IMG/VR virus record: IMGVR_UViG_3300034110_001256
Location: 1-47,362 of that record
DNA: 47,362 nucleotides
Strand: one strand, 5' to 3'
Origin: a virus
The notes under the pieces are model-generated. The model was not told the DNA's origin, ran no database searches, and saw only the letters and a list, made by a program, of their open reading frames with translations. Within the stretch, counting starts at the first letter, position 1. Every line of letters starts with the position of its first letter. The translations under genes and the position numbers were made by a program. Positions 15,145 through 34,605 of this stretch are shown one piece after another.

Positions 15145-15175
15145 GTCGATTCAACGCCCGCCCCATAGGCCCTAG
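15145..15175 (+). promoter_or_regulatory. late promoter-like motif, copy 1
   Basis: GTCGATTCAAC (15145-15155), 16 bases, CTAG (15172-15175). It follows the 14484 gene and precedes the small lipoprotein gene at 15227 by about 50 bases. First of six copies in the late region. Confidence 0.6.
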
Positions 15176-15226
15176 CCCATCCCCACCGTGATCGTTCACA
15201 CTTCACCCACGGATAGGGAGAACCCC

Positions 15227-15439
15227 ATGAAGCGCTTCTTCACCATCTTCGCACTGCTCGCCGTGTCCGCCTGCGTGGGCGTCATGTCCTTCGCGTCCAG
15301 TGTCGTCGCTGCCGTCGACCGATCGATGGACTTCGCGTTCAACCTGCTGCCCGACATGCTCAGCGCCAATGCTCCCTTCGTCATCGACAACGGCCATCCG
15401 CGTTCGCCGCTGGCATCGATGCGTGCCGGCCTGGCCTGA
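15227..15439 (+). CDS. small lipoprotein-like protein (70 aa)
   Basis: A 70-residue protein with a hydrophobic N-terminal segment (FFTIFALLAVSACVG) that ends in a lipobox-like VSAC, so it is either a small lipoprotein (Cys at about residue 16) or has one membrane anchor. The rest has no recognised domain. GGGAG lies 7 bases before the ATG. It forms its own transcription unit: motif copy 1 before it and a strong terminator after it. This isolation suggests a cargo gene such as a surface exclusion lipoprotein; unproven. Confidence 0.65.
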   Translation: MKRFFTIFALLAVSACVGVMSFASSVVAAVDRSMDFAFNLLPDMLSANAPFVIDNGHPRSPLASMRAGLA

Positions 15440-15463
15440 CGCCAACACGGCGTAGATAATGAG

Positions 15464-15490
15464 GGGCGGTCATCGATGGCCGCCCTTTTT
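15464..15490 (+). terminator. rho-independent terminator
   Basis: GGGCGG paired with CCGCCC, extended by TCA/TGG to about 9 pairs around loop TCGA, followed by TTTTT (15486-15490). It ends the small lipoprotein unit, 12 bases before motif copy 2. Confidence 0.85.
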
Positions 15491-15501
15491 CGTTGCTCGC
15501 C

Positions 15502-15532
15502 GTCGATTCAACCCAATGGCGCAGCGCCATAT
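15502..15532 (+). promoter_or_regulatory. late promoter-like motif, copy 2
   Basis: GTCGATTCAAC (15502-15512), 16 bases, ATAT (15529-15532). It sits directly after a terminator and before the portal/capsid gene block, exactly where a promoter is needed. Confidence 0.7.
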
Positions 15533-15564
15533 CCCTGCCCCCGCATTCCAGCGGGAGACAGGTC

Positions 15565-15759
15565 ATTTGCACATCCACCCCCGACGTTCCGACGGTGCCG
15601 GAGCGCCAGTCCGTGCAGCTGCCCGACAAGGGTGCTGATCCCGTAGCGGACCGCGACGCCGCCCGTCGCCGGCGCGCGACGATCGCGGGCATGATGACCA
15701 GCCCGTCCGGTGCGCTCGGCACCGCCAACACCTCCGCCACCTCCAGCACGCTCGGCTGA
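15565..15759 (+). CDS. small phage protein upstream of portal (64 aa, ATT start)
   Basis: A 64-codon frame encoding a small Pro/Arg-rich protein (CTSTPDVPTVPERQ, then ARRRRATIAGMMTSPSGALG). Small proteins of this type, starting Met-Cys, commonly precede the T7-like portal gene in podoviruses of this group. Here the codon before the Cys is ATT (15565), with GGGAG 7 bases upstream and no in-frame ATG, GTG or TTG nearby. The stop makes a TGATG junction with the portal start. An in-frame TTG at 15493 would overlap motif copy 2 and lacks a ribosome binding site. Confidence 0.6.
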   Translation: MCTSTPDVPTVPERQSVQLPDKGADPVADRDAARRRRATIAGMMTSPSGALGTANTSATSSTLG

Positions 15760-17414
15760 TGGCCTCCATCCGCCAGGACTGCGAGACGCGCCTTACCGGG
15801 ATGAAGGCGATCCGCTCCGACTATGAGGCGGAGTGGAAAGAGATCGCGCGTTTCTGCCAGCCGGCACGCTCGCGCTTCCTCAATGGCGACACCAACAAGA
15901 CGGCCCGCCGCGCCCGCAACGCCCGGCTGTACGACGAATATGCGATCGGCTCCTATCGGACGCTCGCCAATGGCATGACGTCCGGCCTCTCCTCGCCTTC
16001 GCGGCCCTGGAAGAAGCTCTCCACCTACGACGACGCGCTGCTCGACGAGCCCGAGGTGCGCTTCTGGCTGTCCGAGGTCGATCGACTGATGGACGCCTTC
16101 TTCGCCCGCACCAACTTCTATGGCGCGGCAAAGACCGGTTATCACGAGCTGGGCCTGTTCGGCACAGAGGCCTGCGTCATGATGGAGCATGGCGACGTCG
16201 GCATGGTGTGCCACCCGCTCACGGCTGGAGAATATTGGATTTCCATGTCCGATGCGATGGTGGCGGACACGCTCTATCGCCGCTGCCCCATGACTGCGCG
16301 CCAGGCGGTGCAGTCGTTCGGGCTGGACAGGGTGAGCAACGCCGTGCGTCAGGCCTACAACACGTCGAACAGCGAGCAGCTTGTAGACGTGTTCCAGGCG
16401 ATCGAGCCGAACCCGCAATGGCGGCCGGGCGATCCGTTCTCGCACCGCTTCCGCTCCATATACTGGGACGAGAAGGATCAAGCCGACCGCGTGCTGCGCG
16501 TCTCTGGTCATCACGACCAGCCCTTCTATGCGCCGCGCTGGGATCTGACCGGCTCCGACATCTACGGCTACAGCCCGGCCATGGAAGGCCTCGCCTCGAT
16601 CCGCGAACTGCAAATGCAGAACAAGCGGGAGAATGAGGCGATCGACGGGATCGTGAAGCCCGAGAAGGTGACGAAACCGGGCCTGAAGCTCACCGGTCAG
16701 CCCGGCAACATCGTGTCCGCCGCAGACGTCGACAAGGATGCGGTGATGGTGCCGTATCAGATGCCGTGGCAAGCCATAGAGCAGATCTCGAACAAGATCG
16801 GCCGCCTCTACCAGCGCATCGATGCCACCTCCTACGCCGACCTCTTCATGGCCATTACCAATATGCAGGGCATCCAGCCCCGCAATATCGAGGAGATCGC
16901 GGCGCGCAACGAGGAGAAGCTGACCCAGCTCGGCCCGACGATCGAGCGCGTGAACAATGAGAAGCTGGCCGTCGCCATCGATCGCGTGTTCGGGATCATG
17001 ATGCGCGGCAACATGCTGCCGCCGATCCCGCAAGCGATGCAGGGGCAGAGCGAGATCAAGGTCGAGTTCGTCTCCATCCTTACCCAGATGCAGCGCATGG
17101 TCGGTCTGGGCCAGATCGAGCGCACCGCGTCTTTCGTGGGCAACCTCGCCGGTGCGTTCCCGGAAGCGGCCGACAAGCTCAACACTGACGAGATGATCGA
17201 CGAATATGCCGATCGCGCCGGCACGCCGCCCAAGCTGATCCGCACGGCCGAGGAAGTCGGCAAGATGCGCAACCAGCGCGCGCAGCAGCAGAACCAGCAG
17301 CGCATGGCCGAGATGATGCCCGCCATGCAGCAGGGCGCGGACGCTGCCCGCCTGCTCTCAGAAACCGACGTCGGCGGGGCGCCGATGCTCGACACGCTGC
17401 TGGGTGCGGGATGA
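15759..17414 (+). CDS. portal (head-tail connector) protein, T7 gp8-like
   Basis: Protein of 551 residues of the podoviral head-tail connecting family (PF12236). It begins with the family pattern of a helical N-terminus plus W/F-rich segment (EWKEIARFCQPARSRFLN), GMTSGLSSPSRPW near residues 71-83, and later GYSPAMEGLASIRELQMQNK. A Gln-rich tail (RAQQQNQQRM) ends it. Twelve copies form the ring through which DNA enters and leaves the capsid. Length is normal. Confidence 0.9.
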   Translation: MASIRQDCETRLTGMKAIRSDYEAEWKEIARFCQPARSRFLNGDTNKTARRARNARLYDEYAIGSYRTLANGMTSGLSSPSRPWKKLSTYDDALLDEPEVRFWLSEVDRLMDAFFARTNFYGAAKTGYHELGLFGTEACVMMEHGDVGMVCHPLTAGEYWISMSDAMVADTLYRRCPMTARQAVQSFGLDRVSNAVRQAYNTSNSEQLVDVFQAIEPNPQWRPGDPFSHRFRSIYWDEKDQADRVLRVSGHHDQPFYAPRWDLTGSDIYGYSPAMEGLASIRELQMQNKRENEAIDGIVKPEKVTKPGLKLTGQPGNIVSAADVDKDAVMVPYQMPWQAIEQISNKIGRLYQRIDATSYADLFMAITNMQGIQPRNIEEIAARNEEKLTQLGPTIERVNNEKLAVAIDRVFGIMMRGNMLPPIPQAMQGQSEIKVEFVSILTQMQRMVGLGQIERTASFVGNLAGAFPEAADKLNTDEMIDEYADRAGTPPKLIRTAEEVGKMRNQRAQQQNQQRMAEMMPAMQQGADAARLLSETDVGGAPMLDTLLGAG

Positions 17415-17725
17415 GCAAGCCAGCTGATGACATGGCCACGCTGATCGCGATGCCAGAATTTCGTCGTTTCCTGTGGCGGTCGATTCAATCGAGCGGAATT
17501 CTCAGCCAATTCACCACTGGGGCTGATGGTCGCGATCTCTCATTCGCAGAGGGGCGGCGCAGCCACATGTTCGCGATCCTGAGCGACGTCGAGAGCGGCC
17601 AGCCCGAAGCGCTGCGCCATCCCAACAGCATCATGACGCTGCTCGCTGTCCTGCGCGAGGAAGCGAACCCAGCCCCGAAGGAGAAGAAGAGTGCGACTGT
17701 TCGGTATGACGAACTTCCGGAATAG
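17411..17725 (+). CDS. Bbp19-like phage protein (104 aa)
   Basis: Protein of 104 residues resembling Bbp19 of Bordetella phage BPP-1: FRRFLWRSIQSSGILSQ, then RDLSFAEGRRSHMFAILSDV, placed between portal and scaffold as in BPP-1-like phages. The exact role in head assembly is unknown. It overlaps the portal by 4 bases. Confidence 0.65.
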   Translation: MSKPADDMATLIAMPEFRRFLWRSIQSSGILSQFTTGADGRDLSFAEGRRSHMFAILSDVESGQPEALRHPNSIMTLLAVLREEANPAPKEKKSATVRYDELPE

Positions 17726-18530
17726 CCTGCTGGCTGGCGTTGCGATGACGGCGGCGGAGCGGCGCGTCGGCCGCTATATGCGTGCGCCCGATCATCCGGC
17801 CGATCCTGCGCCCGCCGCGCCTGCCGCCGATCCCGCCCCTGCGCCCGCTGATCCGGCAACGCCTCCGGCCGACCCGGCGGCCCCGCCTGCCGATCCCGCG
17901 CCCGCAGCCCCCGCAGACCCCGCTGCACCGCCCGCCGCTGATCCAGACGACAGCGATGACACGGCACTGGGCGGCAAGAAGCCCGATCCTGATCCGGGCA
18001 AGCCAGCCGATCCCGATCCGGCCGACCCGGAAGCGCCCGCGCATGTCGTGCCCGAAGCCTATGAGCTGACCGCGCCCGAGGGCCTGACGATCGACGCCGA
18101 CCTCCTCGCCGAGGCCACGCCGATCTTCAAGGAGGCTGGCCTGTCCAACGACCAGGCGCAGGCGATCCTGCCCGCCGCCAAGTCTCTGATGGAAAAGACG
18201 CAGCAGGCGACCATCCAGACGATGATCGATGGCGGCAACCAGCAGCGCAAGGCGTGGCTGGATGCCGCGAAAGCCGATGAGCAGATCGGCGGAAACAAGT
18301 GGGATGCCAGCCTGGGCAGCGCCGCCAAGGCGCTCGATGCGCTGGGCCATCCCGAGGGGTCCGAATTCCGGACGGCCCTCAATGAAACCGGCTTCGGCAA
18401 CCATCCCGAGATGATCCGCATCTTTGCGCGGCTCGGCCTAATGGTTGGCGAGGATGGTGACTTCGTTCGCGCGGATGCAGGCGTGCCAGTGAACGAGCCT
18501 GCCTGGAAGCGCCTCTATCCAAACGACTAA
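17691..18530 (+). CDS. scaffold / capsid assembly protein
   Basis: Protein of 279 residues starting at a GTG with GGAG 8 bases upstream, overlapping the Bbp19-like gene by 35 bases. Residues about 33-115 are a long Pro-Ala-Asp repeat (units such as PADPA), an unstructured acidic linker. The C-terminal part is helical (LAEATPIFKEAGLSNDQAQA, then GSEFRTALNETGF), as in phage scaffold or endopeptidase-type assembly proteins directly before the major capsid gene. No protease motif is seen. Confidence 0.7.
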   Translation: MRLFGMTNFRNSLLAGVAMTAAERRVGRYMRAPDHPADPAPAAPAADPAPAPADPATPPADPAAPPADPAPAAPADPAAPPAADPDDSDDTALGGKKPDPDPGKPADPDPADPEAPAHVVPEAYELTAPEGLTIDADLLAEATPIFKEAGLSNDQAQAILPAAKSLMEKTQQATIQTMIDGGNQQRKAWLDAAKADEQIGGNKWDASLGSAAKALDALGHPEGSEFRTALNETGFGNHPEMIRIFARLGLMVGEDGDFVRADAGVPVNEPAWKRLYPND

Positions 18531-18542
18531 GGGAGACTTGGA

Positions 18543-19559: not shown

Positions 19560-19583
19560 GCCGGCCCGCCAAGGAGAAAGCAC

Positions 19584-20033
19584 ATGATTTTCGATAACAC
19601 GCTGCTCTTCAGCGACGGCCAGGCGATCACGGCGGATGCCGCGTCGACCAACGTCGTTGACTTGGGCGCCACCGGTACGCCGTACGGGGACACCCGCGCC
19701 CTCGTCCGCGATATTGGCAAGGGTTCGCCCAAGGTGCCGATCTGGATCTCTGCGACGGAGGCGTTCAACAACCTCACCACCCTGGAGATCCTACTTCAGA
19801 CGGACGACAACAGCGCGTTCGCCTCGCCCAAGACGGTGTCGCGCTCCGGCGCGATCGCGCTCGCTGACCTGCTGGTCGGTAAGCCGATCGACTATCCCGA
19901 CTATGTGCCGCAGGGAACGAACGAGCGGTATTTCCGCCTGTTCTTCGACATCACCGGCACTGCGCCGACCACCGGCAAAATCACTGCCGGCGTCGTGGCC
20001 GATCGCCAGACCAACTTCATCGGAGGCCAGTAA
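19584..20033 (+). CDS. Bbp16-like capsid cement protein
   Basis: Protein of 149 residues, mostly beta in character (MIFDNTLLFSDGQAITADA, then SKVP-type strands and FRLFFDITGTAPTTGKITAG). It is placed directly after the major capsid, as Bbp16, the capsid-stabilising protein of BPP-1-like phages. AAGGAG lies 9 bases before the ATG. It probably decorates the capsid shell. Confidence 0.75.
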   Translation: MIFDNTLLFSDGQAITADAASTNVVDLGATGTPYGDTRALVRDIGKGSPKVPIWISATEAFNNLTTLEILLQTDDNSAFASPKTVSRSGAIALADLLVGKPIDYPDYVPQGTNERYFRLFFDITGTAPTTGKITAGVVADRQTNFIGGQ

Positions 20034-20491: not shown

Positions 20492-20498
20492 AAGATCT

Positions 20499-20526: not shown

Positions 20527-20540
20527 GTATCGAGGACCGC

Positions 20541-20600: not shown

Positions 20601-21285
20601 TGGCATCGAAGAAACGCTGGCCAGCCAGCAAGCCCAGATCAACAACAAGGCCAATGCGTCCACCGTGGGCGGGCTCACCACAGCTGTTAACAGCAAGGCC
20701 AGCCAGTCGTCGGTCAATGCCCTGGTCGAGACCGTCGCCGGAAAGGCGGACTCCGCCGCCCTCGCTGCCAAGGCCAACACATCCGACATCCCTCTACCCG
20801 CCGACAGCATGCCCAAGGCCGAGGCAACAGCAGCGGCCAAAGGCACGGAACAGAAGAAATACGCGCTGGAGGATCATCAGCACCCGCGCGTCACCAGCAC
20901 GACCGGCCACCCCGCGACCCACATTATCGCGGCAACCGGCCTCGCCACCGTCACCTTCACCCAAGCGTTCGACGCCTTCCCCGGCACCGTATTTACCGAG
21001 GTGCCGCCGCCCACCGGCGTGATGTCAGAGCAGCCTGCGCAGTTTCGCGTACAGAGCTGGATCCGCGAGACCATGACGCCAACACCATCGGGCAAATATG
21101 TGGGTTGCGTCGTGCGGTCGTGGCGCGGCCGCACGCTGCCCGTCATCAATCTCCTGACCGGCTTGCTGTCACTGGTCGGCATCAATGCCGTCATCACCGC
21201 GCTGACCGGCTTCGATCCGTTCGGCGCTCCCGCCACCGGCACGACCTTCACCTGCATCGCCGTCAAGCGCAGTGACGTCGCCTAG
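20572..21285 (+). CDS. tail fibre/appendage-like structural protein
   Basis: Protein of 237 residues if read from GTG 20572, which has no good ribosome binding site; initiation may really be at ATG 20541 in another frame. Residues about 10-75 are repeats of the type ASQQAQINNKANASTVGGL and VNSKASQSSVNALVETVAGK, a trimeric coiled-coil style found in phage fibres. EDHQHPR near residue 101 is a common feature of fibre/collar domains. The C-terminal part is globular. It is probably a minor virion appendage protein. Its stop TAG overlaps motif copy 3. Confidence 0.6.
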   Translation: MTPSRPVDIDGIEETLASQQAQINNKANASTVGGLTTAVNSKASQSSVNALVETVAGKADSAALAAKANTSDIPLPADSMPKAEATAAAKGTEQKKYALEDHQHPRVTSTTGHPATHIIAATGLATVTFTQAFDAFPGTVFTEVPPPTGVMSEQPAQFRVQSWIRETMTPTPSGKYVGCVVRSWRGRTLPVINLLTGLLSLVGINAVITALTGFDPFGAPATGTTFTCIAVKRSDVA

Positions 21286-21315
21286 TCGATTCAACGCATG
21301 GTCGTGCAGCCATAG
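21285..21315 (+). promoter_or_regulatory. late promoter-like motif, copy 3
   Basis: GTCGATTCAAC (21285-21295), 16 bases, ATAG (21312-21315). The next ATG (21325) is only 10 bases further on and has no Shine-Dalgarno, as expected if transcription starts at that ATG. Confidence 0.65.
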
Positions 21316-21324
21316 ACCCACGCC

Positions 21325-21975
21325 ATGGCAACACAGGTCGGCATCTGCAACGAGGCGCTATCCGAGATAGCAGCCGATCCCATCGCTTCGATCGATGAAA
21401 GATCGACTAGCGCCGTTTACTGCAAGCTGCATTATCCCAATGTGCTGGCAGAAATGCTAACCTGGACCGACTGGGATTTCGTGATCCGCCGCGTCACGCT
21501 CGCGGCGCAGCCCAATGATCGCAAAGGCGAATGGCTCTATCGGTACGGGAAGCCTGCCGACATGGCAGACGCAATCCGTGTGCTGCCCGCTGTCGATCGC
21601 CAGGTCGAAAGCCTGCCGGTGGTAGGGCCTTATGCCTTTCCGGCCTGGGATGCGCTGGGCAAGCTGCCTTTCATCATTGCCAATGGTTCGATCTACACGA
21701 ACGTTGCGGCCGCGCTGCTGGAATATCAGGTGAACGCGGTCGATCCCGCCGTAATTGATCCTCTCACTGCCCGCGCCGTCGCGTTGGAGCTCTCTGCGCG
21801 GCTGGCGATGCCACTCAAGAAAAGCCGGGAGCTCAAGAAAGAGAAGGTCGCGGAAGCTGAGGTCGCCCGCCAGCGCGCGATCGCAGAGAGCGAGAACCGT
21901 TCGCCCCGTCGGCAGGCCGACTATATCAGCGAGGTCGAGTATGCGCGCATGGGGCTGATGTCCAATGACCTATAG
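21325..21975 (+). CDS. tail tubular protein A-like (T7 gp11-like)
   Basis: Protein of 216 residues of the podoviral gatekeeper/tail tube A group: VGICNEALSEIAADPIASID, CKLHYPNVLAEMLTWTDWDF and a Tyr-rich middle with WLYRYGKPADM. It attaches below the portal ring. No ribosome binding site is seen before its ATG, so it may be read from a leaderless transcript from motif copy 3. Confidence 0.8.
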   Translation: MATQVGICNEALSEIAADPIASIDERSTSAVYCKLHYPNVLAEMLTWTDWDFVIRRVTLAAQPNDRKGEWLYRYGKPADMADAIRVLPAVDRQVESLPVVGPYAFPAWDALGKLPFIIANGSIYTNVAAALLEYQVNAVDPAVIDPLTARAVALELSARLAMPLKKSRELKKEKVAEAEVARQRAIAESENRSPRRQADYISEVEYARMGLMSNDL

Positions 21976-21982
21976 GCTCACT

Positions 21983-23265: not shown

Positions 23266-25088
23266 TGGGTGTCTCGCGTGTTTTCCGTGTCGGCTCTCCC
23301 TACAACGGTGTCGAGCTGGAGGAGTTGGATCACGAGCAGCAGTCGGACACTATGTATCTGGCGCACATCGACCACACGCCCGGTCGACTGACCCGGACCG
23401 CGCATGATGCGTGGACCTTTGCCGATGTCGCCTTCGGGCCAAAGCTTTTGCCGCCATCGACGGTAACGGTCGAGGTGAACACGCCAAACACTGATTCCGA
23501 AAATGGTGGCGCCGCCTTCTTCCCGCAGAATGCGCGGTACGCGGTGACGGCCGTGGACGAGGATGGATATGAGAGTCGTTGGACCGGCGCCGGTATAACC
23601 GCCTACAATGATCTGAGCCTCAAACGAAACTTCAACTTCATCGAATGGGGCGCGGTTGCAGGTGCGGCCAGCTATAAGGTGTACAAGGCCGATAACAGCT
23701 CATTCTATGGCTATATCGGCAGCACCAACGTGCTCGAGTTCGTTGACGACAATATCGGGCCGGACCTCAGCACCGCCCCGCCAGAGGCCTACAACCCGTT
23801 CGAGGGGGCAGGCAATTACCCCTCGACGGTCACATTCTTCGAACAGCGCCTTTTGTTCGGCCGGAGCCGCAACAGCCCCAACGCCATTTGGGGCAGTCGA
23901 TCGGCTGAGTTCGAGAATTTCGACCAGTCGATTCCGCTACGCGCCGACGACAGCATCGCCCTTGCCGCCAATGCCGGCCAGGTGAACGCCATCAACCAGC
24001 TCGTCTCCACGACCAGCCTGCTCGCCCTCACGTCCGACAGCCTGTTCCGGATCGATAGCGTTGCCGAGGGCGGCTATCTGACTGCCTCCCCGCCCGCCAC
24101 CGTGCGGCGGCAGATCGGCCGCGGCTCCTCACGTCTCAATCCTCTCGTGATCGACAATGTCGTCTTTTACGCGCCCTCCGTCGGGTCGGGCGTGCGCTCG
24201 CTCAATTATAAGTTCGAGGTCGACGGCCTGACCTCCGACGATGTGACGATCTTCTCGCCGCATTTCTTTGACGACATGCATATCGTGTCGTGGTGCTATG
24301 CGCAGGAACCGCGCTCCATCGTCTGGGCGGTCCGCTCCGATGGCAAGCTGCTGGCCTTCACCTGGGAGCAGGCCCAGCAGGTCTGGGGCTGGACGCTGTG
24401 CGAGACGGACGGCTTCGTGCTGTCGTGCTGCTCGGTGCCGGAGGATGGCGAGGACAGGGTTTATTTGGTCGTGCGGCGCACCATTGCTGGCGTCGATCGC
24501 ACCTTCATCGAGCGTATGGCGGCATCGCGTTGGAACGACGTCGCCGACTGCTGCTTTCTCGACTGCGCGGTGTCCTATGATTACGAGGAGCCGCGAAGCA
24601 CTTTCCGCAACCTGTGGCACTTGGAGGGGCGGACCGTCTGGGGCCTGGTCGACGGCTTCGTGGTCAAGGATCTGCTGGTCGAGAACGGGCAGGTGACGCT
24701 GCCCCCGTCTGCCGGCGCCGTGCGCAAGGCGACGTTCGGCCTGCCATACGACGTTAATATCCAGACGATGCCGGTCATGTTCCAGGGCGGTGCAGGCACG
24801 AACGCAGCCAGGAAGCAGCAGCCGGGCGAGATTGTCCTGCATCTGCGGGATAGCCGCAACATCCTTGCGGGCGCCGGCCGAGAGAATGGCACGCTTCCTG
24901 CTGAGCTCTACGAGATCAAGCCGCGCGGTGATGAGCCGTGGGGCGAGGTCGACGCGCTGAAGGACGGCAAATATCTCATGGATTCGCCCAACGTCGTGAG
25001 CGGGCAGGCTTCGGTCTATGTGAAGCAGACGGACCCGCTCCCTCTCACATTGCTGGGCATCTACCTGGACCCGATCATTGGGGGCTAA
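23265..25088 (+). CDS. tail tubular protein B-like, C-terminal part (nozzle)
   Basis: Protein of 607 residues that continues the preceding gene: RVFRVGSPYNGVELEELDH, then QQSDTMYLAHIDHTPGRLTR, is the segment that normally follows the N-terminal part within a single nozzle protein. Later blocks TVTFFEQRLLFGRS and NAIWGSRSAEFENF are typical of the family. It probably forms the tail nozzle together with the upstream product. It starts by reinitiation at TAATG, or a -1 frameshift could fuse the two. Confidence 0.8.
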   Translation: MGVSRVFRVGSPYNGVELEELDHEQQSDTMYLAHIDHTPGRLTRTAHDAWTFADVAFGPKLLPPSTVTVEVNTPNTDSENGGAAFFPQNARYAVTAVDEDGYESRWTGAGITAYNDLSLKRNFNFIEWGAVAGAASYKVYKADNSSFYGYIGSTNVLEFVDDNIGPDLSTAPPEAYNPFEGAGNYPSTVTFFEQRLLFGRSRNSPNAIWGSRSAEFENFDQSIPLRADDSIALAANAGQVNAINQLVSTTSLLALTSDSLFRIDSVAEGGYLTASPPATVRRQIGRGSSRLNPLVIDNVVFYAPSVGSGVRSLNYKFEVDGLTSDDVTIFSPHFFDDMHIVSWCYAQEPRSIVWAVRSDGKLLAFTWEQAQQVWGWTLCETDGFVLSCCSVPEDGEDRVYLVVRRTIAGVDRTFIERMAASRWNDVADCCFLDCAVSYDYEEPRSTFRNLWHLEGRTVWGLVDGFVVKDLLVENGQVTLPPSAGAVRKATFGLPYDVNIQTMPVMFQGGAGTNAARKQQPGEIVLHLRDSRNILAGAGRENGTLPAELYEIKPRGDEPWGEVDALKDGKYLMDSPNVVSGQASVYVKQTDPLPLTLLGIYLDPIIGG

Positions 25089-25536
25089 AGTCGAGGTCAT
25101 CCCGGCCCGTGTCACCCATGTCGGGCCGATCGCCAGCCGGATCCGCGATATTGACCGGCTGGAGTGCGAGGCGATGGGTCATTCGCCCAAGCACGCGCTG
25201 CGCCAGGGGTTCATGCTCTCCGATCGCTGCTGGACAGCGTTGGTCGATGGGCGTCCGGAGGCGATGTTCGGGTCGGTGACGATATCCGCGATCGATCGCC
25301 GCGCGACGGTCTGGTTCCTCGGCACGGACGAAGTCTATCGCCATGGCCGGGTGCTGCGCTCGTGGGGACCGGCACTGTTGCGGCGGACCGTCGATTCAAG
25401 CTGGTGGGCAGGCAACCTAGTGTCCAGCGCCAACGGGAAGGCAATCAGGCTGCTGCGCGCCTGGGGCTTCACCGTCGAGCCAGAGGAGCAAATGGTGGGC
25501 GGCGTGGCATTTCGACAGTTCTGGATGATCCGATAG
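25078..25536 (+). CDS. GNAT-like / DUF2833 phage internal protein
   Basis: Protein of 152 residues starting at TTG 25078, overlapping the nozzle gene by 11 bases. It has the GNAT acetyltransferase-like fold seen in phage proteins of the T7 gp13/DUF2833 type: DIDRLECEAMGHSPKHALRQ, then ALVDGRPEAMFGSVTI, and a C-terminal GKAIRLLRAWGF. The location between nozzle and internal virion genes fits gp13-like proteins. Enzyme activity is not certain. Motif copy 4 lies inside its 3' part. Confidence 0.65.
   Translation: MGAKVEVIPARVTHVGPIASRIRDIDRLECEAMGHSPKHALRQGFMLSDRCWTALVDGRPEAMFGSVTISAIDRRATVWFLGTDEVYRHGRVLRSWGPALLRRTVDSSWWAGNLVSSANGKAIRLLRAWGFTVEPEEQMVGGVAFRQFWMIR
25390..25420 (+). promoter_or_regulatory. 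late promoter-like motif, copy 4 (inside a gene)
   Basis: GTCGATTCAAG (25390-25400), 16 bases, CTAG (25417-25420). It lies within the GNAT-like gene, about 115 bases before the next start at 25536. Same geometry as the intergenic copies. Confidence 0.5.
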
Positions 25537-26075
25537 TGTGCGAGCCGACAACATTATTGATAGCCGCGACGGCCGTGTCCACGCTCGGTGCAGGCTATGG
25601 CGCGCTTCAGGCGAACGCCCAGTCAACATATGCGGCGCGCGTTGCCGATCAGAACGCGCGGCTATCGGCTGAATCGGCGCGGCAGGAGCAGGACAACACG
25701 CGCGGCGCGGCGCTCCAGCATTATCGCAAGGTCGCCCAGCTTCAGGGGCAGCAGCGCGTTGCGATGGCGGGCGGCGGGCTGGATGTGAATTTCGGCAACG
25801 CGGCTAGCCTGACCGCCGATACCGAGATGCTGGCGCGTGAGGACGCCAGTCGGATCTACCGGCAGGGATCAGAGAATGTGCGCGGGTTCGATATCGAGGG
25901 ATCGAACTATCGATCTCAGGCCGCGGCTTCCCGGCAGGCTGCAAGTGGCGCGCTGGTCGGCGGGGCGTTTGAGATGGCGGGGACGGCGCTTAGTGGGGCG
26001 TCGCAGTATAGCAAGCTCAAGGCGCAGGGGTTTGGTCGGAACAGCTTCGGGATTAAGGGTGGCGAGATTTATTGA
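25536..26075 (+). CDS. internal virion protein B-like (179 aa)
   Basis: Protein of 179 residues starting at GTG 25536 in a TAGTG overlap with the GNAT-like gene. The start (CEPTTLLIAATAVSTLGAGY) followed by a long Ala/Gln helix (YAARVADQNARLSAESARQE) and a Gly-rich end is typical of small internal virion proteins (T7 gp14-like) with a membrane-active N-terminus, which are ejected to build the channel across the envelope. Its stop is overlapped by a minus-strand gene. Confidence 0.7.
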   Translation: MCEPTTLLIAATAVSTLGAGYGALQANAQSTYAARVADQNARLSAESARQEQDNTRGAALQHYRKVAQLQGQQRVAMAGGGLDVNFGNAASLTADTEMLAREDASRIYRQGSENVRGFDIEGSNYRSQAAASRQAASGALVGGAFEMAGTALSGASQYSKLKAQGFGRNSFGIKGGEIY

Positions 26076-26446
26076 AGTGCCGTCCGCCACTTGCCATTTA
26101 CAAGCGCCATAGCTGCGAAAGCAAAAAATAAGGAAGACATGCCCCCTGGATCTGCCGCTTTCGTCACAACAAGGAATATTAAGCTGGCAGCAAAGACAGC
26201 CCCTCGGCGACTAGCAAAGTTGGGTATCCAAGTCTTTGACATTTGCTTTCGGAAGATGTTCACGATTGCGACCAGCAGAAAGCCAATAACGAAGCTCGGC
26301 AGAGCAATAATGCTTGATGCTAACAGCGCGTCGGCGGCAGTATCGATGCCCTTCAGATCGCGGATGGGCATACCAAAACCGAAAATGTAGAGCATCATGG
26401 GCCAAGTGACATACCTCACCCTGTTGCTACCTGCCGTCGCTGCCAT
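26069..26446 (-). CDS. AT-rich membrane protein on opposite strand (125 aa)
   Basis: Protein of about 125 residues with several hydrophobic segments (VTWPMMLYIFGFGM; LLASSIIALPSFVIGFLLVA; AVFAASLIFLVV; LFFAFAAMALV), so probably four membrane helices. ATG 26446 is preferred with GGGGTG upstream; the frame is open to 26485. It runs against the late operon and is poorer in GC than its neighbours, as expected for an inserted cargo gene. It overlaps the 3' end of the internal protein gene by 7 bases. Function is unknown. Confidence 0.65.
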   Translation of the reverse strand: MAATAGSNRVRYVTWPMMLYIFGFGMPIRDLKGIDTAADALLASSIIALPSFVIGFLLVAIVNIFRKQMSKTWIPNFASRRGAVFAASLIFLVVTKAADPGGMSSLFFAFAAMALVNGKWRTALQ

Positions 26447-26456
26447 GCTGCACCCC

Positions 26457-26487
26457 GTCGATTCAACCATGCATCTGCTCGCCATAG
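26457..26487 (+). promoter_or_regulatory. late promoter-like motif, copy 5
   Basis: GTCGATTCAAC (26457-26467), 16 bases, ATAG (26484-26487). It lies right after the inserted minus-strand gene and 30 bases before the large internal virion gene, so it could restore transcription past the insertion. Confidence 0.65.
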
Positions 26488-26516
26488 GTATCCACGCTCC
26501 GCTTTGAGGGCAAGAG

Positions 26517-28532
26517 ATGCCGCGTATTCAGCAATATGGCAGTCCCACTGCGGGACCGGTCCAGACAACCAGCGCCCGCTTCCGTCCAGCTGACAATAAT
26601 GGTGGCGCCGCCGCCGGCGTGGCCCGAGGCCTCCAGCAGATCGGCCGCGTAGGCGCTGATGCCGCCATGGTTCAGGCTCAGATTGAGGATGATCTCGCTC
26701 GCACCAATGCAGACAGCCTGTATCTCACTGCCAGCACGGCAGCCAACAGCGCCGTCAGCGACCTGAAGTCTAAGATGGGCAAGGGCGCGCTGGAGCATCG
26801 CCCAATCGCTGGGAAGGCAGTCGAGGATGCGCTCGCCTCCACGCTGGCGCAGGCTGACCAGCGGACGCGTCGCTATCTGGAGCCTCAACTCGCCCGCCTC
26901 CGCGCCTCGGCCGATGGCGAAATGTCGGGCTATGCCGTCCAGCAGGGCCGTGTCTATCAGCAGGAGGTTGGCAAGGCGAAGGTTGAAAACTCCTTCCAGA
27001 TGGCGGTCGCCGCCGACGATCCAGCCAAGCGTGCAGGCTTCATCCAAGAGGTCCGCGACCAGACCCGCCTCAATCTTGAGATGGCCGGCCTGAGCGATCC
27101 GGATATCATGGAAGCCGAAGAGCGCAAGGCCGTCTCCGGCACCCATTCGGCGATCGCCAATCAGTATATGTCGAAAAAAGACTTCGAGATGGCTGACGCC
27201 TATTTTCAAGCGAACAAGAGTAACATGACCGTTGGCGATCAAGCTACGCTAGCTGCGGCACTCGCTGGGCCAATGCAGAAGCGCTGGGCGGAAACGCAGT
27301 TCGCGGCGATCAGCGCATTACCGACGATTGGGGCGGAGCCTGGAAAGGGTGGAAGCGGCAACCCGGTCGCCGACGGCGGCGCGGCGATCAAGGCACTATT
27401 TCCGGGTGCGTCGATTACGTCGACATATCGGCCGTCCGATCATCCGCTGTCAAAAGCAAACCCCAAGTCGTGGCACACGAAAAGCCACGCCGCCGTGGAC
27501 GTTAAGCCGATCAGCGGAATGACCTTCGACCAGTATGTTAAGCAGGTCGAGGGGGCTGGTTACACGGTGTTGGAGGCCATCAACGAAGTGGGCGCCGGTC
27601 GGTCGAAGCATGCAACTGGCGACCATTGGCACATTGTGCTCGGCAAGGGTGGTGGCGGGTCTCCGCCGTCCGCGAGGCGCTGGGATCTGGAAACTGTAAC
27701 CCAGGGCATATACGCTCGGGCCGAGAAAGAGCGGTGGTCACTTGAACAGCGCGACGCCGTTTTGGACGTCGCCAAAGATCGTATTTCGCTCGATGAGCAG
27801 ATGAAGCGCCGGAACGAGGAGGATGCTGATCGGTCTGCCAGCGAGTGGGTGCTTAAGCAGGGTGCTGGCTTTACCGATATGTCTCAGATGCCAGCCGGAA
27901 TCCGCTCTGCTCTCTCTCCAGATGCGGCCCGTTCCTACATCGGCGTGGCAAAGGCGAACGCCAAGCCGGTCGAAGCTGTCGCGAATGGCGCAGCTGCCAC
28001 GTCGCTTGAGCTGATGCGTATTCTGGAACCAGAGAAATTCACCAATACTCCGTTGGGCAAATACGCCGGGCAGGTAACAAGAGCCGAGATGCAGGGCCTA
28101 TTGATCGAGCAGGCCAAGATGCAGAAGGGCGACCCTGATGCTGATATTCGTAGCAAGGTTGCTTCGACCATCAGCACATACGACACTGCGGATCTCGGCT
28201 TCGGGGACAAGAAAACCGGCGCGACGAAGCGCGTGCGCGTGCAAAAGATCATGGAGCGCGAACTGCGCGCGGTGACGGACGGCAAGCGGAAGCCCACAGA
28301 GGCAGAGCTGTACCAATCTTTCATTTCCGCAACTAAGGATGTCGTGATCCCTCACAAAGGCGTGTTCGGCGGCCTGCGAGATAAGTCATTCCGGCGCTTT
28401 GAGATTGAAGCCGACAATGTCCCGCCGAACGTCCGGCGACAGATTGAAGATGCTTACAAGCGCAAATTCGGCGCGACTGAGGTGCCGCCGGAGGCAGTGG
28501 CAGAAGCCTATCAAGCCATAAAGGTCCGCTGA
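26517..28532 (+). CDS. internal virion protein with M15-like peptidase domain
   Basis: Protein of 671 residues, helical and Ala/Gln-rich, like podoviral internal core proteins. Around residues 295-375 a different domain is inserted: FPGASITSTYRPSDH, then KSWHTKSHAAVDVKP and GDHWHIVLG. The spacing of His, Asp and the final HxH matches zinc peptidoglycan peptidases of the M15 type. It would help the ejected core cross the cell wall. Gly-rich linkers bracket the domain. GAGGG lies before the ATG. Confidence 0.7.
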   Translation: MPRIQQYGSPTAGPVQTTSARFRPADNNGGAAAGVARGLQQIGRVGADAAMVQAQIEDDLARTNADSLYLTASTAANSAVSDLKSKMGKGALEHRPIAGKAVEDALASTLAQADQRTRRYLEPQLARLRASADGEMSGYAVQQGRVYQQEVGKAKVENSFQMAVAADDPAKRAGFIQEVRDQTRLNLEMAGLSDPDIMEAEERKAVSGTHSAIANQYMSKKDFEMADAYFQANKSNMTVGDQATLAAALAGPMQKRWAETQFAAISALPTIGAEPGKGGSGNPVADGGAAIKALFPGASITSTYRPSDHPLSKANPKSWHTKSHAAVDVKPISGMTFDQYVKQVEGAGYTVLEAINEVGAGRSKHATGDHWHIVLGKGGGGSPPSARRWDLETVTQGIYARAEKERWSLEQRDAVLDVAKDRISLDEQMKRRNEEDADRSASEWVLKQGAGFTDMSQMPAGIRSALSPDAARSYIGVAKANAKPVEAVANGAAATSLELMRILEPEKFTNTPLGKYAGQVTRAEMQGLLIEQAKMQKGDPDADIRSKVASTISTYDTADLGFGDKKTGATKRVRVQKIMERELRAVTDGKRKPTEAELYQSFISATKDVVIPHKGVFGGLRDKSFRRFEIEADNVPPNVRRQIEDAYKRKFGATEVPPEAVAEAYQAIKVR

Positions 28533-28533
28533 G

Positions 28534-31500
28534 ATGGCAAGCAACCCGTTCGACGATTATTTTGAAAAGCAGCGCGACGCGCAAACGGCATTCCGAATTC
28601 AGGCGGCAAAACCGGATGAGACAGCGCGCGCGCAAGCGATTGCCCGCGAGCGTGGGATCCCCGCTGCTGTCGTGCAGTCAGACTTGCCGAATTTCGAGGC
28701 GCAGCAGCGCGCTACGAGGGCCAACGAGGTTAACCGACGCCACCCGGCGATCGGTCGATGGTCGGCAAATGCCAGCAATGCGACGATCGCCGCCGACGAC
28801 TATTCCACGCTCGATCGCCTCGGCTCTGCGTTCATGAATCGCGTGGCGCTCGACAAGATGGACATCGTCCAAAACGGCGGCTTCCTCGATCGCATGGGCG
28901 ACCTGTTCAAGTCCGGGCTCTACAGCCTGGAATCGGGCGCAGCCTCGTTCCGTGGCGCGCTTCAGGATTGGTCGGCCCGCAATCCGCTGCCTTGGACCAG
29001 CCGAGAAAACACCGCACGAGATCGCGCCGGCGCGGCCATGGCGCGAGCGCAGGCCCGGATCTACAGCGACGTCGGCGGCACACAGGTTGCTGGCGAAACG
29101 ACGTGGGACACGCTGAAGGCCCGCCCTACTATCGGCAATGTTTTGGCGTTTGGCTTAGACACCGGCGTGAAGAGTGTGCCCGGCATGGCGCAGGCCGCCC
29201 TCGCCGCTCCTCTCTATGTCGCTGGACAGGCTGGCAATATCGGCCAGACCCGCGCGCAGGTGCAGGGTCGCGAAGACGCCACTGCGCAGGATGTCGTTGA
29301 GGCAGCTCCCGCTGCTGTGCTCAGCCTGGTCCTAGAACGCGTCGGCATCCATGGCATCTTCGGCGCCGGCGGCCGGACAGCGCTCGGCCGCATTGCGCAG
29401 GCGGGTGCGACCGAGGCGACCACCGAGTTCGGCCAGAGCATGGTTGAATATATCGGTGGCCATTCGCAGACCGGCACCAAGTTCGATACCGACGAAATGT
29501 TCGATCAGGCGTTCGCCGGCATGGTCGCCGGCGGCCTGATGGGTGGCGGCCTGCGCGCCTCCGGCGAATTGTCGCGGCCCGCGCTACGGCCGGTAGGCGC
29601 GATGGTGTCCCGCATCTCGGATGCCAACAGCGCCATGCACGGCGGCACGTTCCTCAACGAAATCGCCACCGCTACCGCGCAATCCAAAACCGCCAAGCGC
29701 GCCCCAGACGCGATCGCCGACCTGGTGCAGCAGCTGGGCGAGGATAACGGCGTCGATCAGGTCTATCTGCCAGCCGAGGCGGTGCGCTCCTACATGCAGT
29801 CGGATGGCTATGCCGGCGACCTCGACGGCTGGCGCGTCCAGATCGATGAGGCGGAGGCAACCGGCGGCGATCTTGTCCTGCCGGTGGGCGAGCTCACGCG
29901 GCTGGCCACTACGCCAGGCTGGGAATCGCTCAAGAGCGATATCCGCCTGTCGGCCGGCGGCATGTCGCTCCGCGAAGCCGAGACGTTCAACGAGGCCTGG
30001 ACCGACGCCATGGAGCAATTGTCGGATAGCATCGCACAGGAAGCGGAACAGGCCCGTGCCGCCGCCGCCCCGCGCGAGCAACTGCTCCAGTCTCTCACGG
30101 AAAAGCTGACCACGGCTGGCATGTCGCCGTCGATGGCGCGGCAGAACGCCGAGTTCCTCGCCCAGCGTGCCAGCACCCGCGCCACCCGCATGGGGCGCGA
30201 TCTCGCCGGCACGGAATTTGATGGGCTTCAGGTCCGCCAGATCCTGCCGGAAAATATCGCCGCCGCCCAGAAGGCGGACCAGCTCGACATCGCCATCGAT
30301 GTGATGAAGCGGAAACTGGACCCGTCCCAGAACCTTGGTCCCACGCTGATGCAGTTCATCGCGAAGGAGGGCGGCATTGTCGACACTGGCGGCGATCTCA
30401 AATCCATGGGCGCGGACGCATGGCACAAAGGCAGGCCTGGCCAGCGTCGATTGCTCCGCGATCAGGGTGAGCTGCTGGAGGATGGCGGCTTCGGCGAGAA
30501 TGAATATGGGCCGGACGCCTGGGCGCAGCGCGCATGGGAAGCTGGCTATTTCCCCGAGTTCGGCGACCAGCGCCCAAGCGCCAACGACTTGCTGGAGGCG
30601 ATTTCAGAGGGTGTGGCCGGACGAGACCGTACGCTGATCGCACGCGAGAAATCCGTGCGTGACGCGGCCGAAGAGCTGCGCGCCCTGCTGGAGAACCGCG
30701 GGATCGATCCCGACACCACTAGCCGCCGGGAGATACGTGCAGCCGTCGAAGCCTATTCCGCTGAGGAAGCGGACGGCGATGCCTATATGCAGGGCGATCT
30801 CATCCCGCGCGGCCGCATCTTGTTCCCGGGCGGCCAAAGCGCCGCTGCCATCATCGAACTGTACCAGACGCAGAACCCGTCGACGTTCCTGCACGAGTCC
30901 GGACACCTGTGGCTGGAGGAGCTGCGCGAGGACGCGGCCGACGCCGATGCGCCGCAACAGGTGCGCGACGACTGGGCGATCGTCGAAGGCTGGTTCGCTG
31001 CCAACGGGCATCCACTGGAGAATGGTGCGATCCCGGTAGATGCGCACGAGCTGTGGGCGCGCGGCGTTGAGCGTTACCTGATGGAGGGCAAGGCCCCCTC
31101 GCCCGGGCTTCAGCGCTTGTTCCAGACATTCAAAGCGTGGATGATCTCGCTCTACAACAGCGTGTCGCGCCTCAATACGCCGATCAGCGACGAGGTGCGC
31201 GGCGTGATGGACCGCCTGATCGCCACCGACGAGGAGCTGGCCGACGCGATCGCCGCGCAGCATCTGGAGGCGCTCTTCCCGCAAAAGCCGGCATCGATGA
31301 CGGATGCCGAATACACAGCCTATCAGAACCTCGCCGCCACCGCCCGCGATCAGGCACAGAGTCGGATGCTCGCCAAGACGATGAACGCGGTGAAGCGCCG
31401 CGTCACGAAGGAATGGCGCGAGCGCGAAGAAGAGGTGCGCCAGGACGTCACCGAGCGGATCGACGCCCTCCCCGAATTTCGCGCGCTAGTCATGGCGCGC

Positions 31501-34500
31501 GAGACGCCGCTTGATACCCAATGGATCAAGGACACGCTGGGCGAAGACGCGGCCGCCTTGCTGCCGAAGGACTTCAAGCGGCTCCATAAGGAAGGTGGCG
31601 CAAACCCCGACGATGTCGCGGAGCTGGCCGGGTACCGTACCGGCGACGAGATGGTCCGCGCCCTGATGGGCATCGAGATCCGCCGACGCGAGATGCGCGA
31701 GAATGGCGACAAGCGCTCTGTGCGCAAGGCCATGATCGATCAGGAGGTTGAGGGCTTGATGCTGGAGCGCTTCGGCGACCCGTTCACCGACGGCAGCATC
31801 GAACAGGAGGCACTTGCCGCAGCCCAGTCGGACGAAATGGGCGCGGTGATGAGTGCGGAGCTGCGCGTCCTCGGCCGGATGACCGGACAGCGCGTCACCC
31901 CCTACAGCGTGGCGAAGAACTGGGCTGAGCGGCAAATCACCGACGGCCGCGTCCGCGACGTCGCCAGCCGATCGGCGATCATCCGCTATGAGCGTGCCGC
32001 CGCGAAGGCCGGGCGGGCCGCGATGGACGCTGTCATTGCCAAGGATCATGAGGAGGCCTTCCGCCAGAAACAAAGCCAGATGCTCAATAACGCGCTGGTC
32101 GCCGCGGCGCGACGCGGAGCCGATCAGGTGGACGAGGCGGTAAAGCGGCTGGAGAAATGGGCGAAGCGGCGGACCGTGAAGGGCGTCGACCAGGATTATC
32201 TCGAACGCGCGCAGCTGCTGCTCGAACAGGTCGAGATGAAAGAGCGCACCCAGCGCTCGCTCAACCGACAGGAGAGCTTCGAAGCATGGGCGGCGGAGCG
32301 CCAGGCGGAAGGGTTCGACGTCGTCGTGCCGCCATCGTTCGCGGAATCGATCGGCCGGACGCACTGGACCCGGCTTAAGGTCGGGCAGCTGCTGGCGCTG
32401 AATGATGCCGTCGTGCAGATCATACACCTCGGCCGACACAAGCAGTCGCTGCTCGATGCGAAGGAGGAGCGCGATTATCAGGCCGTCGTATCCGATACGA
32501 TCAACCAGGTCGAAGCCCTCATCTCTACTGGTGACCTGAAGGCGATCCCTGAGAACCGCACCTTTCTGGAGCCGGGCTTCTTCAGCCGCGCGAAAAGCTC
32601 CATCCTGTCGATCGACGCCTCTCTGCTGAAAATGGAAACCGTGTTCGACTGGCTCGACGGCGGCCGGTTCGGCATGTTCAAGCGTGTCGTGTTCCAGCGG
32701 ATCGTCGATGCGCAGGAACGCCGCCGCACGATGACGCGAGCCATGGTGGACGCCTTGGAAAAGGCGCAGGCAGAAGTCCCGAAGGAGGTGCGCAAGCGCT
32801 GGGGCCAAAAGGTGGCCCTGCCCTTCATCGATCCTCGAAACGGCCAGCAGTCGGTGATGACGCGCGACCAGCTGATCTCGATGGCGCTCAACCTTGGCAA
32901 CGAAGGAAATGCGGAAAAGCTGGCGGGTGGCTACGGCTGGGGCGAACAGTCCATGCTCGACATGCTCAACCAGGAGCTGACGCCAGCCGAATGGACCTAT
33001 GTCCAGAAGGTCTGGGACATCGTCGATACGCTGTGGCCCGACATCGCCGCGCTCGAGCGACGGATCAACGGCGTCGAGCCGGACAAGATCGAGGCGCGCG
33101 AAGTGCAGACGAACGCCGGCACGTTGCGCGGTGGCTACTTCCCGGTGGTCTATGACACCTCGCGCGATCTGCGCGTCGAGAAGCTGACGGCGATCGATGC
33201 CGACCAGCTGTTCGGCAATGGCTACAAGCGGTCCAGCACGCGGGCCGGGTCGACCAATGAGCGAACCGAGGTTCGCGACATGCCGATCCTGCTGTCGCCG
33301 TCGGTGCTGTCGCGGCACATCACCGAGGTCGTGCATGACATCACCCATCGCGAGGCGATGATGGACACGCACCGATTCCTCAACGATCCACGCATCGTTA
33401 CGGCGGTGCGGGAAGTGATGGGCGAGGAGATCCAGAAGCAGTTCAACCCATGGCTTCACCACATCTCCAACGAGCTGGCCTATGAGGCGCAGGGCCTGGG
33501 TGCGCTTGAAAAAGCGATGAAGTCACTCCGCGTGAACGCGACCTTTGTCGGCCTTGGTTTCAGGTGGACGACGGTGGCGATGCAGATTTCCGGCTTTGTA
33601 CAGACGGCGGAGGTGTTGGGTCCGACTGCAATGGCGAAGGGCGTCTTCAGCTATGCCCAGCACCCGATCGCTTCATTTCCGTTTGTTCTCGAGCGCAGCC
33701 AGGAAGTCCGATCCCGCATGGACACGATGGACCGCGACATGAAGGACATGCTCAACAATGAGAGTAAGCTCGGGAAAACCGTTTCCGACATCCGCGCGAC
33801 CGGCTTTATGGCGATCGGCGCGGTCGATCGCTTCGTCTCCGTTGTGTCGTGGATGGCCGCCTACAACAAATCGTTGGAAACCGGCGCGGCCGAGGATGTG
33901 GCGATCGCCTATGCCGACGAGGTAATCCGAAAATCGCAGGGTTCAGGGGCGGCGAAGGATATTGCCGGCATCATGCGCGGCAAAGGCTCGGCCGGCGAGC
34001 TGCTGAAAGCAATAACGCCATTCTACAGCTTCATGAGCGCCTACTACCAGCGCCAGCGCAATTTTGCGCGCGATACCGGGAAGGCATTTCGTAAGCGCGA
34101 CGCTGCGGCGATCCCCGGTTTGGTGACGCGCTTCCTGCTGCTCTACGTCTTCCCTGCCCTCGCGGCCGAATGGCTGGCCGGGCGCTGGCCGGATGACGAC
34201 GACGAAGAGAGCTTCACCCAGTGGGCGCTCCAGACGATGGGCCTCAATGCGCTAGGTCCGCTCCCGGTCGTGCGCGATCTGGCGAACGTCGCGGTCAAGG
34301 GCTTTGATAGCAGCGTGTCGTCGGTCGACCGCTTCGTCTCCACCGCTTCGCGTACGATCAAGGACATGAAGCGGCTGGCCGAGGGCGAGGACACGAAGCG
34401 CGCTACCAGGAACGCGATGGAGGTGGCGGGCTATTTTGGTGCGCCGACGTCGGGGCAGATGGCAGCGACCAGCCAGTTTCTGGTCGAAGTCTATTCTGGC

Positions 34501-34569
34501 GATCAGAACCCTCAGGGATTTGCCGAATGGTGGGAGGGGCTGACAAAGGGCAAGATCAAGGAAGACTGA
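28534..34569 (+). CDS. giant internal virion protein with HExxH motif (2011 aa)
   Basis: The largest gene, 2011 residues, starting MASNPFDDYFEKQRDAQTAF. It is a polyvalent internal/ejection protein comparable in place to T7 gp16. Near residue 787 lies FLHESGHLWLEEL, an HExxH zinc metallopeptidase-like site, followed by HELWARGVERYLMEGK, as in large polyvalent phage proteins. Long coiled-coil regions occur around 960-1300. The C-terminal third has hydrophobic helices (for example LLLYVFPALAAEWLAG). It would enter the cell with DNA; protease activity is inferred from the motif only. Confidence 0.75.
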   Translation: MASNPFDDYFEKQRDAQTAFRIQAAKPDETARAQAIARERGIPAAVVQSDLPNFEAQQRATRANEVNRRHPAIGRWSANASNATIAADDYSTLDRLGSAFMNRVALDKMDIVQNGGFLDRMGDLFKSGLYSLESGAASFRGALQDWSARNPLPWTSRENTARDRAGAAMARAQARIYSDVGGTQVAGETTWDTLKARPTIGNVLAFGLDTGVKSVPGMAQAALAAPLYVAGQAGNIGQTRAQVQGREDATAQDVVEAAPAAVLSLVLERVGIHGIFGAGGRTALGRIAQAGATEATTEFGQSMVEYIGGHSQTGTKFDTDEMFDQAFAGMVAGGLMGGGLRASGELSRPALRPVGAMVSRISDANSAMHGGTFLNEIATATAQSKTAKRAPDAIADLVQQLGEDNGVDQVYLPAEAVRSYMQSDGYAGDLDGWRVQIDEAEATGGDLVLPVGELTRLATTPGWESLKSDIRLSAGGMSLREAETFNEAWTDAMEQLSDSIAQEAEQARAAAAPREQLLQSLTEKLTTAGMSPSMARQNAEFLAQRASTRATRMGRDLAGTEFDGLQVRQILPENIAAAQKADQLDIAIDVMKRKLDPSQNLGPTLMQFIAKEGGIVDTGGDLKSMGADAWHKGRPGQRRLLRDQGELLEDGGFGENEYGPDAWAQRAWEAGYFPEFGDQRPSANDLLEAISEGVAGRDRTLIAREKSVRDAAEELRALLENRGIDPDTTSRREIRAAVEAYSAEEADGDAYMQGDLIPRGRILFPGGQSAAAIIELYQTQNPSTFLHESGHLWLEELREDAADADAPQQVRDDWAIVEGWFAANGHPLENGAIPVDAHELWARGVERYLMEGKAPSPGLQRLFQTFKAWMISLYNSVSRLNTPISDEVRGVMDRLIATDEELADAIAAQHLEALFPQKPASMTDAEYTAYQNLAATARDQAQSRMLAKTMNAVKRRVTKEWREREEEVRQDVTERIDALPEFRALVMARETPLDTQWIKDTLGEDAAALLPKDFKRLHKEGGANPDDVAELAGYRTGDEMVRALMGIEIRRREMRENGDKRSVRKAMIDQEVEGLMLERFGDPFTDGSIEQEALAAAQSDEMGAVMSAELRVLGRMTGQRVTPYSVAKNWAERQITDGRVRDVASRSAIIRYERAAAKAGRAAMDAVIAKDHEEAFRQKQSQMLNNALVAAARRGADQVDEAVKRLEKWAKRRTVKGVDQDYLERAQLLLEQVEMKERTQRSLNRQESFEAWAAERQAEGFDVVVPPSFAESIGRTHWTRLKVGQLLALNDAVVQIIHLGRHKQSLLDAKEERDYQAVVSDTINQVEALISTGDLKAIPENRTFLEPGFFSRAKSSILSIDASLLKMETVFDWLDGGRFGMFKRVVFQRIVDAQERRRTMTRAMVDALEKAQAEVPKEVRKRWGQKVALPFIDPRNGQQSVMTRDQLISMALNLGNEGNAEKLAGGYGWGEQSMLDMLNQELTPAEWTYVQKVWDIVDTLWPDIAALERRINGVEPDKIEAREVQTNAGTLRGGYFPVVYDTSRDLRVEKLTAIDADQLFGNGYKRSSTRAGSTNERTEVRDMPILLSPSVLSRHITEVVHDITHREAMMDTHRFLNDPRIVTAVREVMGEEIQKQFNPWLHHISNELAYEAQGLGALEKAMKSLRVNATFVGLGFRWTTVAMQISGFVQTAEVLGPTAMAKGVFSYAQHPIASFPFVLERSQEVRSRMDTMDRDMKDMLNNESKLGKTVSDIRATGFMAIGAVDRFVSVVSWMAAYNKSLETGAAEDVAIAYADEVIRKSQGSGAAKDIAGIMRGKGSAGELLKAITPFYSFMSAYYQRQRNFARDTGKAFRKRDAAAIPGLVTRFLLLYVFPALAAEWLAGRWPDDDDEESFTQWALQTMGLNALGPLPVVRDLANVAVKGFDSSVSSVDRFVSTASRTIKDMKRLAEGEDTKRATRNAMEVAGYFGAPTSGQMAATSQFLVEVYSGDQNPQGFAEWWEGLTKGKIKED

Positions 34570-34574
34570 TCCCC

Positions 34575-34605
34575 GTCGATTCAAGATAGCTTCTGCCGCC
34601 CCTAC
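34575..34605 (+). promoter_or_regulatory. late promoter-like motif, copy 6
   Basis: GTCGATTCAAG (34575-34585), 16 bases, CTAC (34602-34605). It stands between the giant internal protein gene and the tail spike gene, 28 bases before the ATG. Confidence 0.65.

Follow-up and report, generated by a model that had tools for sequence, protein, structure and literature searches.

The particle-building genes of a family of temperate sphingomonad viruses, about 30 relatives of which were compared, are preceded by a repeated element that reads as a transcriptional switch. The conservation and layout of these sites make it very likely that they are promoters for the late genes. We also consider it likely that the host polymerase, with its housekeeping sigma factor, acts at them after recruitment by a small phage protein (gene 11823-12272) sitting on a box within each promoter. 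The window, that is, the whole 47,362-nucleotide stretch analyzed, is a 47-kb IMG/VR virus record and represents the genome of a temperate podovirus. Besides the features listed in Table 1, it carries a lysis cassette and genes for replication, terminase, tail and ejection proteins, a tail spike, and a protein of 2011 amino acids.

Table 1. Features of the window, with putative late promoters and their predicted start points (+1)
Feature	Position	Strand	Box	-10 element	Predicted +1	Genes served or remarks
Integrase gene	1043-2047
cI-like repressor gene	6443-7198
Candidate box reader, 149 aa	11823-12272	+				Last gene before terminase small subunit
Late promoter 1	15145-15185	+	15145-15154	TAGCCC 15173-15178	A15185	Serves 15227-15439
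Intrinsic terminator	15461-15488	+				Between promoter 1 unit and promoter 2; -20.3 kcal/mol, z -4.7
Late promoter 2	15502-15542	+	15502-15511	TATCCC 15530-15535	15542	Serves 15565-15759 and portal
BPP-1-like portal gene	15759-17414
In-gene box copy	17479-17519	+				Box codons ATT CAA; CAA at bases 29-31
Late promoter 3	21285-21325	+	21285-21294	TAGACC 21313-21318	A21325	+1 is first base of tail tubular ATG
Tail tubular protein gene	21325-21975	+				PHROG 394; ATG coincides with predicted +1
Late promoter 4	25390-25430	+				Inside gene 25078-25536; frozen box codons GAT TCA; serves 25557-26075
Late promoter 5	26457-26497	+	26457-26466	TAGGTA 26485-26490		Serves 26517-28532 and 28534-34569
Late promoter 6	34575-34615	+	34575-34584	TACCCC 34603-34608	A34615	Serves 34633-37776 (tail spike)

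Motif copies in the window and in related phages

A sequence-only reading of the window had listed six copies of a bipartite motif, and all six were found exactly where it had placed them. As seen in Table 1, the pattern GTCGATTCAA-N18-TA occurs six times, on the plus strand and in the late region only. Dinucleotide-preserving shuffles of the window gave a mean of 0.00 matches and none reached six, so a chance origin of the six copies is excluded. At base 11 of the motif, four copies have C and the other two have G; the gap measures 16 bases, and the second box is (A/C)TA(G/T/C), preceded by CC in five of the six copies and by AC in the copy at 25390, as had been described. A seventh exact GTCGATTCAA, at 17479 within gene 17411-17725, had been overlooked; its bases 29-30 are CA, not TA. 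The first base of the copy at 21285 is the last base of a stop codon, and the copy at 26457 overlaps a minus-strand open reading frame (ORF) only when the first ATG of the frame is taken as its start. The terminator that had been proposed upstream of the copy at 15502 was revealed by folding as a 12-bp hairpin; the terminator scan had overlooked this hairpin at 15461, perhaps because its long stem uses up part of the T run.

Several neighboring genes have features of their own. The minus-strand ORF (26069-26485) is inserted between late genes, has no PHROG family, and has relatives only in genomes G002 (64%) and G410 (55%), at the identical location; it is probably a moron. Directly before promoter 1 lies a plus-strand gene for 216 amino acids (14484-15134), with a hydrophobic N-terminal part, no family, and no counterpart in any relative compared. 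The leader after promoter 1 (15185-15200 and the equivalent in relatives) retains CACCGTGATCG in nearly all close relatives, a possible leader element. The approximately 65-amino-acid gene before the portal (15565-15759, plus strand) has a conserved, non-canonical start codon: the window and 12 relatives have ATT there, and two have ATC. The Shine-Dalgarno sequence GGGAGAC always precedes the ATT or ATC, and divergent orthologs have ATG or, in one case, TTG. At the far end of the late region, promoter 6 probably also drives the lysis genes downstream of 34633-37776.

The search for the pattern in related sphingomonad phages, which had been suggested as a check, showed sites conserved in place at gene borders. 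Relatives with portals 90 to 96% identical to that of the window, both contigs and prophages, share the left box and the gene borders, with diverged spacers; in some of the relatives, CA replaces TA in copy 1. Sphingobium sp. Leaf26 and S. xenophagum NBRC 107872 are among the bacteria with close relatives of the phage. Six sphingomonad prophages with portals 57 to 62% identical keep the TA spacing and have, at orthologous sites, boxes of related or variant sequence: NGCGATTCAA in G524, G037, and G582b, CGATCCAAA in G619 and G579, and GATTCACG in G582a. The box core is altered in some phage clades (CGATCCAA, GATTCACG), and the first two bases of the box are uniform within a genome and vary between clades (33 of 40 match the commonest pair of their genome, against a shuffled mean of 18; p 5e-5).

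Many copies scattered through host DNA had been named as the outcome that would speak against a phage promoter, and the host genomes of relatives gave the opposite picture. In three such genomes of 4.5 to 4.9 Mb, the prophage accounts for 20 of the 24 box 1 matches that have A at base 30, and a reversed control pattern gave none. Across 398 Sphingomonadaceae genomes, one match fell outside the known prophage versus two for the reversed control; the sites are thus almost missing from 397 additional genomes of the family. A stricter form of the pattern, scanned against all IMG/VR contigs, returned these phages and four lone matches; the latter (L016, L019, L022, and L027, one match each) lie in AT-richer viral contigs and look like chance. 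This distribution bears on whether an alternative sigma factor of the host reads the promoters, with the phage exploiting a stress or cell-cycle signal. The two-box layout and the failure to find a phage sigma factor would suit such a reading. It is nevertheless very improbable, given that the sites are almost absent from host chromosomes, that the first bases differ from one phage clade to another, as does the core in some phages, and that the -10 element fits the housekeeping sigma rule described below.

The copies within genes show that the DNA itself is conserved. In gene 25078-25536, the two box codons are the only 2 of 49 conserved columns in which every genome has a single, identical codon; for gene 17411-17725, the box codons are among the 4 of 31 columns with one codon throughout. 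Of the 335 isoleucines in the late genes of the window, 53 are encoded by ATT, and of the 326 glutamines, 48 by CAA. The frozen box codons are therefore clear evidence of selection acting on the DNA. In the copy at 17479, bases 29-31 form an in-frame codon at which TAG or TAA would be a stop, and most relatives have CA(G/A) there; this copy probably serves as a weak promoter or as an additional site for binding.

Promoter anatomy and the host sigma-A rule

The consensus of 78 non-redundant sites is CC-(GT, CC, TC, CT or CG by clade)-CGATTCAA-N15-CC(A/C)TAG-N7-CCAT; L085 has the CT form and L086 the CG form. Of 130 core sites, 97 have TA at bases 29-30, and 0 to 15 have it at each other offset, counts that are not independent since the relatives are akin. 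A CA step peaks at bases 40-41, and ATG occurs only once within bases 31-40. The peaks for ATG lie at base 41 (23 sites) and at bases 61-63, that for Shine-Dalgarno-like tetramers at bases 50-53. The box is thus fixed in its spacing to the -10 element, the initiator-like CA, the Shine-Dalgarno sequences, and the start codons.

In Zymomonas mobilis, a member of the Sphingomonadales with mapped promoters, sigma-A promoters follow the rule TTGNNN-17-TANNNN, have a discriminator of 6 bp, and show no conservation of a T at -7, and leaderless mRNAs account for 119 of 2,675 TSS-gene pairs (PMC7566282). When the motif is aligned with this rule, the TA at bases 29-30 falls at -12/-11 and the -35 slot at bases 6-11. 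The TA, the 6-bp discriminator, and the CA at bases 40-41 agree with the rule, and transcription is predicted to start at base 41. The left box spans -40 to -31 and is centered at about -35, where a TTG would be expected; in all window copies the slot reads TTCAA(C/G/T), and no consensus TTG lies at 17-bp spacing. At 21325, the ATG is exactly at the predicted +1 in most relatives, and a leaderless tail-tubular mRNA is therefore predicted.

The sequence-only reading had considered the pair of boxes unlike usual sigma-70 promoters. This holds for the -35 part, which is foreign; it does not hold for box 2, which fits the sphingomonad sigma-A TANNNN, and the reading of box 2 as a non-host element was rejected on the Zymomonas promoter data (PMC7566282). 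Box 1 as a perfect dyad was likewise rejected, GTCGA-T-TCAAC being only near-palindromic with a variable base 11. A sigma-70 scan across the late region gave no more matches than in shuffles. Because only the -35 part is foreign, the host RNA polymerase together with an activator is a better fit than a sigma factor or polymerase of the phage; and because the TTG typical of host promoters is missing from the slot TTCAAN, the promoters look weak unaided. Very probably, then, these are activator-dependent late promoters of the sigma-70 type and not sites of a phage sigma factor. Considering the in-place conservation, the single strand, the restriction to phages, and the fixed spacing, the earlier proposal of a phage-specific late promoter has the best support.

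Could both boxes be read by a phage-encoded sigma factor or single-subunit RNA polymerase that belongs to no known family? The strictness of the left box would agree with this, yet box 2 and the discriminator form a host-type -10 region, and PHROG scans of the window proteins scanned named no polymerase. The earlier statement that no phage sigma factor is seen was borne out: Sigma70_r2 and r4_2 (PF04542, PF08281) were absent from all eight phage records searched, including the window, with positive controls. A search for PF00940 (RNA_pol) also found none in the eight records, but its controls were silent too. We regard a phage enzyme of this kind as highly unlikely.

Candidate reader of the box

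Every gene of the window was compared with its counterparts in ten motif-bearing relatives and in eight more. The gene at 11823-12272 is the only non-virion gene present in every motif-bearing genome that covers the early-late junction; given its physical linkage to the late module, part of the co-occurrence could be due to co-inheritance alone. The gene is retained even in genomes with swapped terminase genes. Homologs were detected down to 28% identity, and all contigs with a full-length homolog that reach the late genes contain the CGATTCAA core. The box core is unchanged across wHTH versions just 45 to 60% identical, which speaks against this protein as the reader. In the six prophages with 57 to 62% identical portals, a relative sharing only the winged helix lies upstream of the portal. 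The protein had no match among 50,697 phage records.

The protein consists of a LexA-like winged helix (residues ~9-80), an APHWRxRP linker, and a ribbon-helix-helix (RHH)-like part (residues ~100-149). Its AlphaFold model (pLDDT 83) contains a confident winged helix, and the N-terminal half matches LexA with a Z score of 9.0 over 71 residues (rmsd 2.2), with weak LexA profile matches in addition; the modeled fold corresponds to the wHTH of LexA residues 1-70. The C-terminal half is a helix pair whose top structural matches are RHH proteins, at middling scores (CopASO, Z 5.7; Arc, 5.3; MatP, 5.0). Its first element is modeled as a helix, and Pfam and sequence searches were silent on RHH, so we assign this half to the ribbon-helix-helix fold tentatively. 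A residue code linking the reader helix or the RHH-like strand to the first two box bases looked suggestive by eye and was rejected as inconsistent (L078, L079). Other winged-helix relatives in sphingomonad genomes (L097, L099, and L101) have a C-terminal cysteine cluster, CxRCGxRxD..CxH, and are possibly another regulator family.

These observations suggest that the 11823-12272 protein is probably the reader and activator of the late promoters. The promoter evidence by itself does not single out a reader, and the same promoters might be read by another phage protein, such as a virion-module protein or the product of 8092-8658 (plus strand), which has two DNA-binding domains, a GapR domain fused to an FtsK gamma winged helix. 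We judge this improbable: the 8092-8658 gene was not detected in several motif-bearing genomes and was rejected on that ground, and only 11823-12272 is always present, at the early-late junction, with a DNA-binding fold. A literature search combining GapR and FtsK gamma terms found no paper.

A LexA-like wHTH and a box that overlaps the -35 region would also be compatible with an operator through which the 11823-12272 protein represses the late genes in lysogeny. This is hardly credible given the position of the gene, in a rightward lytic operon just before the terminase and away from the cI-like repressor, and given a -35 slot without the host TTG, which makes the promoters look weak unaided. 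Activation, rather than repression, is what we infer.

Proposed late switch and its relation to known systems

In the proposed mechanism, the 11823-12272 protein would be made early in the lytic program from the rightward early operon and would bind the phage operator NN-CGATTCAA at -40 to -31, in place of TTG. It would then recruit or stabilize host sigma-A polymerase at promoters that have a usable -10 and no -35, with sigma region 2 reading the -10 element (C-M-T-A-G, TA at -12/-11). Head, tail, and ejection genes would thereby be switched on after transcription of the early operon, every late unit having its own putative promoter, one of them directly after a strong terminator. A bolder version, which we consider rather doubtful, is that the 149-aa protein is a detached stand-in for sigma region 4 that docks the host polymerase at the -35 operator. 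If true, the holoenzyme would be re-aimed by one small wHTH-plus-RHH protein without a sigma remodeller, and the clade box variants would represent a set of naturally matched readers and promoters whose specificity differs from pair to pair.

Phage activators at late or middle promoters without a -35 element are already known from T4 (MotA), P2 (Ogr), and Mu (Mor/C). In P2, the small early protein Ogr/Delta turns on several late promoters via the host polymerase, as the candidate reader would do; Ogr, a zinc-finger protein, acts from about -55, and Ogr_Delta was found in none of eight phage records, with a positive E. coli control. In Mu, C and Mor are activators required at late and middle promoters without a good -35, a role like that proposed here, and their dyad site lies further upstream than the box described here. 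Among the Pfam matches listed for the candidate reader, there was none to Mor/C. For Mor, an activator needed at promoters without a good -35 has been described (PMC4287176).

T4 middle promoters carry a box centered near -30 for the phage-encoded MotA, which replaces the -35 element in a sigma appropriation that also involves AsiA (PMC6755090). As in the MotA/AsiA system, a phage DNA-binding protein would act here at a -35-replacing box, with the host -10 kept and host RNA polymerase used (PMC6755090). Unlike the MotA box, the sphingomonad phage box lies at -40 to -31, the genes are late genes of a temperate podovirus, and the candidate reader has a LexA-like wHTH with an RHH-like tail. The MotA model was absent among the Pfam matches to this protein up to E 0.1; a search for AsiA (PF09010) found it nowhere, but the controls were silent too. 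By the tests run, the reader family and the promoter class match none of these three systems. Bordetella phage BPP-1 and Cobetia phage Carin1 share the order of head, tail, and ejection genes with the window (portals 36 to 41% identical), whereas the box and the wHTH protein were found in neither; in these two and in G565, more distant phages without the wHTH protein, the promoters were not found. Literature searches found no description of the promoter, the phage group, or the protein.

A late-gene switch is thus apparently defined for the poorly studied temperate podoviruses of sphingomonads, and one candidate reader protein can be named. The frozen codons point to promoters imposed within coding sequence, and a leaderless late mRNA is to be expected where the predicted +1 falls exactly on an ATG. 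Moreover, the promoters and their clade-specific boxes could serve as specific expression pairs for sphingomonads.
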